The notes under the pieces: generated by a model
Seen by the model: the letters and a program-made list of their open reading frames with translations, nothing else
Databases searched by the model: none
What the model was told of the DNA's origin: nothing
IMG/VR virus record: IMGVR_UViG_3300046542_000200
Span: 1-35,429 of that record
Direction: 5' to 3' (one strand)
DNA: 35,429 nt
DNA from: a virus
In this document: piece by piece, positions 6,547-12,478 of the stretch
Layout of the letters: the number at the start of each line of letters is the position of its first letter
Position numbering within the stretch: position 1 is the first letter of the stretch
Position numbers and translations under genes: made by a program

Positions 6547-7324
6547 GGGTCAGTTCCTTTTGCATTGCGGCAATAGCGGCCCGCGTCTGGCGCTTGCGCA
6601 GATATGTGTCGACCCGGTCAGCCTGGGCCTTCTTGAGTTTTTCGCGGTCTTGGCGAGCCTTGGCGGCGGTGACGATCAAACGGACTTCGGCGAGTTTTTC
6701 GCGCAGCTTTGGTGACGGCTGCACAACCTTCCCAGTCAACAGCCCGGCAATGGCCTGGCCATCAGTGGTGATCGGCGCCACACGCAGGTCGGACAGATAC
6801 TGCGCACCGGCTTGCTGGCTGATGAGCTGCATCCGAACAGCCGACTCGATCGCAGTCACGCGGCGAGCAGGATCGAAGCCGAGGGAAACACTCCAGGTAG
6901 CCGGCACAGCTTCTGCCCGGGCCAGCGTAACCAGCCGCTCGTAGGCGCTGAGGAATGCCATGCGGGCACCAACCTTGTCGCCAAGGTCGAGGACCGGATG
7001 CGCGGCAGTCATGGCCTGCAGGATCTCGGCAGTCATCACCACGGTCGCGCTTTCGTCGGCAGCCTCAAGGGCGATCGACCATGCTTCGTCCTTGCCCGGG
7101 CGGCCATCGCTCGCCTGAATGCGCTGGAGAATCGCGGCCAATGTGAGCTTGCCAGTCAGTTCGCGGCGGCAGGCCTGCAGCGCGCGACGGATATCAACAG
7201 GATCATGCTCTGCAAGGTCCTCAGCCATCAGCTGAGCCGCTGCGCCGCTGATGGTCTGACCAAGGGTCTCGGCAGTTGCGCAAATCGCTCCAGCGAGCGC
7301 TGCGAGGTTTTCAGAGGAAAGCAT
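6539..7324 (-). CDS. Replication-module protein in the position of lambda P
   Basis: The ATG at 7324 follows a strong GGGGG site, giving 261 residues; a GTG nine bases upstream is an alternative. The protein is almost all helical. It contains GRPGKDEAWSIALEA (about 74-88), a motif recurring in phage replication regions, then a helical core with RMAFLSAYERLVTLAR. The C-terminal 60 residues are Lys/Arg-rich coiled helix. There is no Walker motif, so it is not a DnaC-type ATPase. Its position directly after the O-like gene suggests a helicase-loading or accessory replication role, which is inference. Confidence 0.7.
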   Translation of the reverse strand: MLSSENLAALAGAICATAETLGQTISGAAAQLMAEDLAEHDPVDIRRALQACRRELTGKLTLAAILQRIQASDGRPGKDEAWSIALEAADESATVVMTAEILQAMTAAHPVLDLGDKVGARMAFLSAYERLVTLARAEAVPATWSVSLGFDPARRVTAIESAVRMQLISQQAGAQYLSDLRVAPITTDGQAIAGLLTGKVVQPSPKLREKLAEVRLIVTAAKARQDREKLKKAQADRVDTYLRKRQTRAAIAAMQKELTHV

Positions 7325-9119: not shown

Positions 9120-9896
9120 ATGAGCAAAAGACCTTTACCGCCAGACAAGAAAGAGGAATGCCTTCGTCTGAAGGCTCTCTTTAATTCTAGAAAATCCGCC
9201 TTGGGCTTGACTCAGGAGAAGCTGGCGCACGCTCTGGATATGAATCAGAGCTCCGTCAGTCATTACCTGAACGGCGTGAACCCCCTGAATGCCTCTGTTG
9301 CAGCATCCTTTGCCAAAATCCTCGGCGTAGATGTCTCAGACTTCAGTGAGCGCCTGGCTGAAGAGATTGCAAGGATGACGACGGGCGCCACGCCTATTCG
9401 TCGTGAACTGTCTAATGCCCAGTTCCTCGACTCTATCGAGGTGTGGGACGATGACACTCCGCTCGAGAATGATGAGGTCTATGTGCCGTTCCTCAAGGAA
9501 GTTGAGTTGTCCGCCGGAAGCGGCAGAACTGCAGTCCAGGAGTCTTCCAACCGAAGACTTCGGTTTGGCCGTATCAGCCTCCGCAACAAAGGTGTCGATC
9601 CAGCCAGCGCCAAGTGCGTAACTGTTGCCGGAAACAGCATGGAGCCCGTGTTGCGCAATGGTTCGACCGTCGCTGTGGACACCAGCAACACGCGCGTCAT
9701 TGATGGCGATATGTACGCTATCGATCACGCCGGCCAGCTCCGGGTAAAGCAGCTCTACCGGCTACCTGGCGGCGGCCTGCGGTTGCGCAGCTTCAATCGG
9801 GACGAGCACCCAGACGAGGAATACACCGCTCAGCAGATACAGGATCAGGACCTTGTCGTCCTTGGTCGGGTCTTCTGGTCGGGCGGGTTTCATTAA
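9120..9896 (+). CDS. cI: CI-type phage repressor with S24 (LexA-like) protease domain
   Basis: This 258-residue protein has an N-terminal helix-turn-helix at about 28-72 (LTQEKLAHALDMNQSSVSHY). A linker leads to a LexA-like domain. Residues 132-133 are the expected Ala-Gly cleavage site (SAGSG). The Ser-Lys pair is Ser173 (GNSMEP) and Lys210 (LRVKQL). It should maintain lysogeny by binding the operators at 9044-9110 and 10506-10547 and be inactivated through RecA-stimulated self-cleavage after DNA damage. The ATG is directly preceded by TTTAGGG with no normal spacer, which fits leaderless translation from its own promoter. Confidence 0.93.
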   Translation: MSKRPLPPDKKEECLRLKALFNSRKSALGLTQEKLAHALDMNQSSVSHYLNGVNPLNASVAASFAKILGVDVSDFSERLAEEIARMTTGATPIRRELSNAQFLDSIEVWDDDTPLENDEVYVPFLKEVELSAGSGRTAVQESSNRRLRFGRISLRNKGVDPASAKCVTVAGNSMEPVLRNGSTVAVDTSNTRVIDGDMYAIDHAGQLRVKQLYRLPGGGLRLRSFNRDEHPDEEYTAQQIQDQDLVVLGRVFWSGGFH

Positions 9897-11053: not shown

Positions 11054-11234
11054 ACCATCCTCCTGCGCATTCACCGAGTGCGCAGCGGGATGCGGATGAC
11101 CAAGCAACCTCCGCGCAACGCGGCCCCTGCATCACCTCAGATGGCATCTGGCTGTTTCCGGATCGCCATCTGGCTTTACGACTGCCTCTCAAACCCCGGG
11201 AGGCATTCGAAAGCCACGAAACGAGGATTCATCA

Positions 11235-11750
11235 ATGGGATTGGACATTACGGCGTACAGCAAGCTGGTGCTCGCTCCTGACGCAGAGATTGACGCTGAC
11301 GGCGATCCTGTCGACTACGACAACCACGAAACCTTCTACGAGAATCCAGACTTCCCTGGTCGTATTGAGGGGATCACGCCGAAAGCGGTTTACAGGATTG
11401 AAGGTGAATGTGCGGGGCTCCGCGATTTCTATGGCGCCTACAACGCATGGCGCGATCAGCTGGCAAAGCTTGCTGGGTATCCGGTCGGCCAATACGAACA
11501 ATATGGTCGAGTTGCTGAAAGTCACTGCGTCGCTTGCTGGAATGGCGCACAAGGCCCATTCGCCGAGCAGATCAACTTCTCCGATTGTGACGGCACCATC
11601 GGCCCCGTGGTCAGCGCGAAGCTCGCCAAGGACTACGCCGAATTCGCCGAGAAAGCTGAGCAGGTCGGCGGACATTTCTGGGAGAAGTTCCAGGAATGGA
11701 AAGCAGCTTTTGATTGCGCAGCGGATGGCGGCGCAGTCCGGTTTCACTAA
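11235..11750 (+). CDS. Conserved-looking phage protein, 171 aa
   Basis: The ATG has GAGG eight bases upstream. The protein starts MGLDITAYSKL and contains VDYDNHETFYENPDFPGR, HCVACW and an aromatic C-terminal helix (HFWEKFQEWKAAF). The N-terminal pattern is familiar from early regions of Pseudomonas and enterobacterial phages, but no function is known to me. It is soluble and acidic. It is followed by more than 400 bases of structured non-coding sequence. Confidence 0.75.
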   Translation: MGLDITAYSKLVLAPDAEIDADGDPVDYDNHETFYENPDFPGRIEGITPKAVYRIEGECAGLRDFYGAYNAWRDQLAKLAGYPVGQYEQYGRVAESHCVACWNGAQGPFAEQINFSDCDGTIGPVVSAKLAKDYAEFAEKAEQVGGHFWEKFQEWKAAFDCAADGGAVRFH

Positions 11751-11785
11751 CCCTCTCCGTACACGTCTTGCCAGACGCAAATGGC

Positions 11786-12200
11786 CCGATATCTCCATGG
11801 TGATGGAGAGGTCTGTATCGGAGAGCACCTCGAATCGTCCTGATCCAATGTCGTTACAGGCGAGGTGCTCTACCGATGCAGATGAATGCCCAGGCTGATG
11901 GGCAAGTGTAAGACCTGAGGGATCGCGGGAATCGTGGCCGGTAGAGTGAGTAAGCGCCCAGATGGCCACGGCGAGTCCAAGAATAAGCGGCTGAAACCTT
12001 CGCCCCGGTGAAACTCCGGTGTCACTAAGGCCGCTAATAGTCGTGCCGGGATCAGCTCCGGTCATCTGCACCTATTCCAACAAGGGCAAAAAGTGCCCGA
12101 GTTCAACTCGCGCGGAGGATTTGCAGCCATGTAACAGATAGTCAAAGCCCTCCAGCAGGAGGCGAATCACCCCGCGTAGGGAGGTCTATGCGAGGTAGTA
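11786..12200 (+). ncRNA. Candidate structured non-coding RNA or regulatory leader
   Basis: This stretch has no supported gene but many strong stems on the plus strand. Examples are CCGATA/TATCGG (11786/11816) enclosing TCTCCAT/ATGGAGA, and an exact 11-pair stem AGAGCACCTCG/CGAGGTGCTCT (11822-11832/11861-11871). Others are TGCCCA/TGGGCA (11887/11899), GTGGCC/GGCCAC (11934/11964), GGGCA/TGCCC (12084/12094), CGAGT/ACTCG (12098/12106) and CCTCC/GGAGG (12149/12158). An ATG-TAA start-stop pair at 12129-12134 has a GGAGG ten bases before it. It ends at the terminator at 12202-12227. Confidence 0.45.
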
Positions 12201-12227
12201 AAGCCCGGTTCGCCGGGCTTTTTATTG
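12201..12227 (+). terminator. Intrinsic terminator with TTCG loop
   Basis: AGCCCGG (12202-12208) and CCGGGCT (12213-12219) flank a TTCG loop, followed by TTTTTATT. It lies within a frame that opens at ATG 12188 after AGGGAGG and continues in phase into the next gene, so translation could interfere with the hairpin. Confidence 0.85.
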
Positions 12228-12247
12228 GGCGATTGGAGGTGAGTGTG

Positions 12248-12478
12248 ATGAGCACCATAGACGAAAGCGGGCCAGCGTTCCCGCTCGACAGCAATCAATA
12301 CGGCGCGGTGCTTGGTATGAGCCTTCGCGATTACTTCGCGGCCAAGGCAATGGCCTCGATGATAAGGATGCCTCCCGCTGGAGGTTGGAATGTCGGGCTA
12401 AATGGCTCTAGCAATGGCCATATTTCTGAGATCGCCTTTGCAATCGCCGACGCCATGCTTATCGAGCGTGCCAAATGA
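12248..12478 (+). CDS. Small phage protein with GMSLRDYFAAKAM motif, 76 aa
   Basis: ATG 12248 has a GGAGGTGAG site upstream. An in-frame ATG at 12188 with its own strong site would add 20 residues encoded across the terminator. The protein contains AFPLDSNQYGAVLGMSLRDYFAAKAMASM (about 10-38, written here in part), a pattern seen in small phage proteins of unknown role, and ends in a helical ADAMLIERAK. It opens a chain of ATGA-coupled genes. Confidence 0.75.
   Translation: MSTIDESGPAFPLDSNQYGAVLGMSLRDYFAAKAMASMIRMPPAGGWNVGLNGSSNGHISEIAFAIADAMLIERAK

Follow-up and report, generated by a model that had tools for sequence, protein, structure and literature searches.

The window analysed here (IMG/VR record IMGVR_UViG_3300046542_000200, the whole stretch of 35,429 nucleotides) contains a representative of an RNA family that is widespread in phages. 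The core of these RNAs is constant and their insert exchangeable, and on the transcribed strand core and insert together behave as a cassette that can be swapped. The constant core consists of helix P1, hairpins P2 and P3, and a 5-bp kissing loop between GCUGA and UCAGC; it measures about 60 nt plus the insert, and the element of the window spans 11877-12070. The initial annotation had noticed a long structured non-coding stretch; beyond that, the stretch proves to be put together from shuffled modules, which surround a widespread core whose insert can be exchanged. This RNA architecture, known here from its sequence and predicted fold, has no entry in Rfam 15, yet its core is carried by phages as classic as P1 and HK620. 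To our knowledge, there is no precedent for an RNA scaffold that stays constant while dozens of unrelated inserts are exchanged in it. No description of the element was found in the open-licence literature, and one may exist in subscription journals.

The gene-free stretch, which the initial annotation had put at over 400 bases, is somewhat longer, with 497 bases (window 11751-12247) between the gene ends at 11750 and 12248. The product of the upstream gene (11235-11750) shares 62.5% identity with phiPSA1-type phage proteins along its entire length, and the downstream gene, starting at 12248, belongs to PHROG 2201. Two ORFs enter the stretch, one of 279 aa on the minus strand and one of 202 aa on the plus strand, and neither has a match in Pfam or PHROGs. 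A decayed protein gene, which the initial annotation had named as one finding that would count against it, is not supported, given that the ORFs crossing the stretch match no protein family in these collections. The RNA from 11754 to 12227 has a minimum free energy of -196.8 kcal/mol, compared with -163.9 +/- 5.9 for 100 dinucleotide shuffles (z -5.6), none of which reaches the native value. The 11-pair stem reported earlier is perfect (AGAGCACCTCG/CGAGGTGCTCT at 11822-11832/11861-11871), and the TTCG terminator that was said to end the stretch is there in full (Table 1). The stretch lies downstream of a CI-like repressor (9120-9896, plus strand) and heads toward a RecE-like exonuclease and an integrase, as a left operon would, with all of these on the same strand, and "early left operon" is a fair name for this setting. 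About 1.9 kb of the operon precedes the element, no promoter-like site was detected immediately 5' of it, and ARAGORN found no tRNA or tmRNA gene in the window.

Table 1. Features of the composite RNA element, in window coordinates
Feature	Position	Strand	Evidence or occurrence
5' module, three hairpins including the 11-pair stem	11748-11876	+	Folds; common to L003, L019, L029, L032, L106 and L197 independently of the 3' module
Helix P1, 5' arm TGCAGATG, pairing with 12063-12070	11877-11884	+	Covariation in alignments A1 and A2; arm-exchange test
P2 hairpin GCCCA-GGCTGA-TGGGC	11888-11903	+	Conserved core; compensatory stem changes; loop covariation
Kissing-loop half GCTGA in the P2 loop	11894-11898	+	
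Exchangeable insert, type I	11904-12044	+	18-sequence alignment A1; RNAalifold; pair counts
GAC/GTC pairing of the type I insert	11912-11914/12040-12042	+	
Helices of the type I insert	11920-11926/11971-11978, 11933-11939/11964-11970, 11986-11992/12029-12035	+	
Hairpin CCGG-TGAAACT-CCGG inside the insert, T-loop-like 7-nt loop	12005-12019	+	Stem invariant in A1; T-loop pattern scan
P3 hairpin GCCGG-GATCAGCT-CCGGT	12045-12062	+	Conserved core; compensatory stems such as TCAGG/CCTGA
Kissing-loop half TCAGC in the P3 loop	12052-12056	+	
Helix P1, 3' arm CATCTGCA	12063-12070	+	Covariation in A1 and A2; arm-exchange test
3' module, hairpins plus SD with start-stop ORF	12074-12202	+	Common to L003, L125 and L196, partly L107
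SD GGAGG and start-stop ATG TAA in the 3' module	12114-12118 and 12129-12134	+	
Intrinsic terminator GCCCGG-TTCG-CCGGGC-TTTTT	12203-12223	+	Sequence and fold

The two halves of the core were defined from a single phage record, Aurca01, in which blastn returned short matches flanking an unlike middle: the 5' half reads GATGAATG-NN-CAGGCTGATG-NN-CAAG and the 3' half CCGG-N-GATCAGC-N-CCGG-N-CATC. Family members were taken to be sequences with a 5' half GRTGAATG-NN-CAGGCTGATG-NN and a 3' half CCGG-NGATCAGCN-CCGG-NCAYC, together with P1, P2 and P3. The window carries both halves, at 11881-11903 and 12046-12066, with a P3 loop one base shorter, and its two loops are complementary. Because copies were chosen by pattern, counts at invariant positions are biased upward, and the pairs discussed here are those free to vary. 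Helix P1 (GATG/CATC with an outer extension), P2 and P3 are paired in nearly all copies, and the extension of P1 differs by lineage (TGCA/TGCA, ATTG/CAAT, TTGT/ACAA, TGGG/CCCA and others); the P1 arms form a mean of 3.95 contiguous extra pairs, compared with a maximum of 2.12 among 2000 dealings-out of the 3' arms. Across the core pairs of 25 diverse elements (alignment A2), 97.9% of cells are paired and nine pairs have changed on both sides, with a covariation score of 0.277 against 0.108 for shuffled and 0.109 for the best slid version. Covariance analysis of homologues, the check proposed with the initial annotation, gave strong covariation both for the core and for the insert domain of the window (see below). 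Pattern searches that excluded the common loop recovered a minority variant of the kissing loop, GUCGA in P2 with UCGAC in P3, in which both sides are swapped; it occurs in three sequence backgrounds, one of which also has an altered P3 stem (TCAGG/CCTGA). G-U pairs outnumber A-C pairs by 60 to 15 (p 1.6e-7), an excess that places selection on the RNA of the transcribed strand. A covariance model (R1) built from 25 other elements, with the window and the type I insert left out, gave one match only in the window (11873-12074, E 9.5e-10) and recovered 14 of 14 named phages tested, some of which had contributed to the model. At 7232-7257 of locus L010, a 5' half is followed by no recognisable 3' half, and this truncated copy suggests decay or replacement.

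Between P2 and P3, the insert ranges from 26 to about 200 nt, a single 230-nt call being a nested artefact. Among 115 distinct inserts, about 75 groups can be told apart, with no similarity detected between groups. Inserts and flanks are exchanged against each other: a 79-nt insert is identical in phage P1 and phage IME207, and a 38-nt insert is common to the HK620 late leader and the pL leader of an E. coli prophage, the flanks being unrelated in both cases. Altogether, 54 pairs of copies have the same insert in unrelated flanks, and three pairs (L012/L035, L004/L081 and L166/L167) have alike flanks with unrelated inserts. The type I insert of the window is found in Pseudomonas and enterobacterial phages. 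In the corresponding alignment of 18 sequences (A1), RNAalifold gives 41 pairs for core and type I insert, 17 of them with double changes, and a direct count finds 16 pairs with double changes and 98.8% of cells paired, with a score of 0.287 against 0.123 when shuffled. Averaged over groups, inserts fold slightly better than their shuffles, with a mean z of only -0.52, a margin too small for every insert to count clearly as a structured domain. Inserts were no more complementary to 2.2 Mb of phage DNA than reversed or shuffled controls. In L080, an insert of another type forms a cloverleaf resembling tRNA-Pro(CGG) and is scored as tRNA-Pro by ARAGORN, and T-arm-like hairpins occur in two further inserts, those of L118 and L157; some inserts may derive from tRNA-like domains.

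The modules around the core are also reassorted. L003 carries the whole unit of the window (11726-12253) at 97% identity; in other loci, each of the three parts (5' module, core plus type I insert, 3' module) occurs without the other two. The long hairpin of the 5' module (window 11814-11880) can pair with ATGCA of the 5' arm of helix P1, so that the 5' module and helix P1 compete, a possible switch.

Copies of the element are spread widely. The 5' half alone was detected in 42 IMG/VR contigs and the 3' half in at least 120 stretches. A 30-nt core query matched 223 INPHARED records; chance will account for some of the short matches among these. The same query matched 1052 of 5426 complete E. 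coli genomes, most of them at less than its full length. In whole genomes, the 5' half was found in 18 of 299 for the genus Pseudomonas and 8 of 398 for the phylum, and the reversed control gave none. Named carriers include P1, HK620, HK633, PAJU2, IME10, the BASEL phage Bas80 and IME207, along with Klebsiella KP591P1, Stenotrophomonas SOVA965, Acidovorax AP1, Burkholderia CSP3 and Aeromonas ST4. Some phages have several copies: P1 (OP279344) carries two with different inserts (65631-65771 and 66060-66167) after its tRNA genes, PAJU2 carries two, and IME10 has one strong and two weak.

The genomic contexts of these copies are diverse. In lambdoid prophages (L166, L167), the element sits between a nutL-like boxA/boxB and an N-like gene, as these assignments are read from sequence, and in HK620, HK633, PAJU2 and ENT47670 it sits between the Q region (Q/pR' in HK620 and PAJU2) and the lysis genes. 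In P1, SOVA965, KP591P1, ST4 and others it is near tRNA genes, and intergenic gaps of apparently lytic phages also carry it. A tRNA gene lies within 1.5 kb of 53 of 158 copies, always on the same strand, although more than 20 of these 53 are closely related P1-like records and the independent number is smaller. Terminator-like sites follow within 300 nt in 35 of 122 cases (29%), compared with 42 of 625 random places (7%), and many copies, sited in N leaders, have no nearby terminator. Among annotated copies, no protein gene recurs as a neighbour.

Comparison with known RNAs gave no identity for the element. At the gathering threshold, Rfam 15 had no match in the window and matched only tRNAs in 12 loci, and relaxed thresholds added only weak, chance-level matches. 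C4 antisense RNA (RF01695) of P1/P7 is likewise a phage-encoded structured RNA, and phage P1 carries both; C4 was rejected, as its model has no match on the core and it is sited elsewhere in phage P1 and PAJU2 (at 43.8 kb of the phage P1 record, where the copies of the element are at 65.6 and 66.1 kb). The related c4-a1b1, for which no Rfam accession is given in PMC2864571, was rejected by location alone, with no R1 match at the expected place beside C4. STAXI (RF01728), a tandem pseudoknot repeat, gave no match, and the signatures of group I introns, RNase P, hammerhead and other ribozyme cores were not seen, in agreement with Rfam. Nearest in style are GOLLD and ROOL, structured phage or prophage RNAs without a protein product that are often located beside phage tRNA genes; in GOLLD one part is conserved and another less so, and the linker sometimes holds tRNAs (PMC12286853). 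However, they are ~600-800 nt or more and have Rfam models, neither of which matches the window or the loci scanned, whereas the element has a core of ~60 nt and an insert that is replaced wholesale. AgvB, AsxR, Esr41 and Pas, prophage sRNAs of E. coli, are also non-coding RNAs from lambdoid prophages, but no description of a constant core with an exchangeable insert was found for them in PMC13192938, and the Rfam models of AgvB, AsxR and Esr41 do not match the element. Like HK022 put and the lambda nut/N leader, the element can be a structured RNA in a lambdoid early-left leader. HK022 put is a short two-hairpin RNA; in contrast, the element combines a kissing core with an insert that varies, and its contexts also include late, tRNA-associated and lytic-phage ones. 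Three-way junctions of the purine-riboswitch kind combine a P1 helix with two hairpins whose loops kiss, as the element does, and differ from it in that the element has no Rfam match and has a large exchangeable insert between the hairpins.

The initial annotation had offered a free phage RNA or a regulatory leader. A structured RNA is upheld by the covariation and the lack of a protein match. Our preference, which falls somewhat short of an even chance, is for a trans-acting free or processed RNA with a swappable effector domain. Such an RNA would be transcribed within the early left operon and either released by the terminator that ends the stretch or trimmed from longer transcripts, giving a stable RNA of ~0.2-0.47 kb. 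Helix P1 and the kissing loop may act as a clamp that resists nucleases and displays the insert, itself the putative working domain that would bind a host or rival-phage factor. We propose that inserts diversify and swap, with the core retained, because this partner changes. The terminator right after the element, the enrichment of terminators after other copies and the orientation of tRNA genes favour a free or processed RNA, and the N-leader and late-leader positions in lambdoid phages leave room for a role in cis. Neither a recurrent neighbour gene nor complementarity to phage DNA suggests a putative binding partner. It is possible, if well short of probable, that the family is the phage counterpart of a variable-domain molecule, a constant kissing-loop scaffold in temperate and lytic phages of gamma- and betaproteobacteria whose exchangeable RNA domains evolve against host defences or rival phages in an arms race.

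Those lambdoid positions, between the boxA/boxB-like nutL and the N-like gene in L166 and L167 and between Q/pR' and the lysis genes in HK620 and PAJU2, count in favour of a cis-acting leader, in which the RNA would work on the transcribing polymerase or on nearby translation (put-like antitermination, an attenuator, or replacement of the RNase III hairpin before N). The frequent downstream terminators also suit it. Against it stand the copies near tRNA genes and those in intergenic gaps of phages that seem to be lytic, an insert that varies more than a single cis function would seem to need, and the ~1.9 kb of operon before the window copy; we regard this explanation as unlikely, though a serious contender. 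An antisense or sponge sRNA acting in trans, in which a stabilising core would carry an insert with seeds directed at host sRNAs or mRNAs, would account for hypervariable inserts with a weak average fold, and phage anti-sRNAs such as AgvB are known (among the prophage sRNAs in PMC13192938). However, complementarity to the 2.2 Mb of phage DNA is not in excess and the type I insert is kept by structure instead of being a free seed; we consider this role quite improbable. An RNA-only assembly, in which kissing loops join molecules into an oligomer with inserts on or in a particle, as for ROOL and GOLLD, is more doubtful still. Loop complementarity is conserved by covariation, and a tRNA-adjacent location and a tRNA-like insert are both features reported for GOLLD or ROOL (PMC12286853), but a kissing loop within one molecule is sterically simple, the core is far smaller than either RNA, and no second intermolecular contact is evident. 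The precision of insert swaps between the core halves might indicate a DNA-level cassette, the halves being a site of recombination or of single-strand DNA folding, with the RNA incidental; this is disfavoured as very improbable by the ratio of G-U to A-C pairs, by the same-strand bias with tRNA genes and by the covariation of the kissing loop.

Carriage by standard phages makes specific questions on the stability of the preferred free or processed RNA and on the partner of its insert testable, and the alignments and covariance model suffice to annotate the family elsewhere.

Two further kinds of short sequence were seen. An SD followed by a start-stop ORF (ATG TAA), present in the window at 12114-12134, also occurs in such gene-free stretches of L017, L013, L023, L037, L103, L112, L054, L125 and L196 and falls in three conserved sequence families (GGAGGATTTGCAGCCATGTAACAG, AGGAGATAYCGCCATGTAACCGG and GGAGGAGTTATGTAACAGGTAACAG), although its total count may not exceed chance; in L001 and L044, ATG AAG stop stands in place of the start-stop. 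At 11087-11142, the window holds another recurrent element of Pseudomonas phages that is likewise gene-free, GATGCGGATGA...CCGCGCAACGCGGCCCCTGCATCACC; it has no Rfam match there and adjoins the core in L007, L010, L021, L024, L026 and L028.
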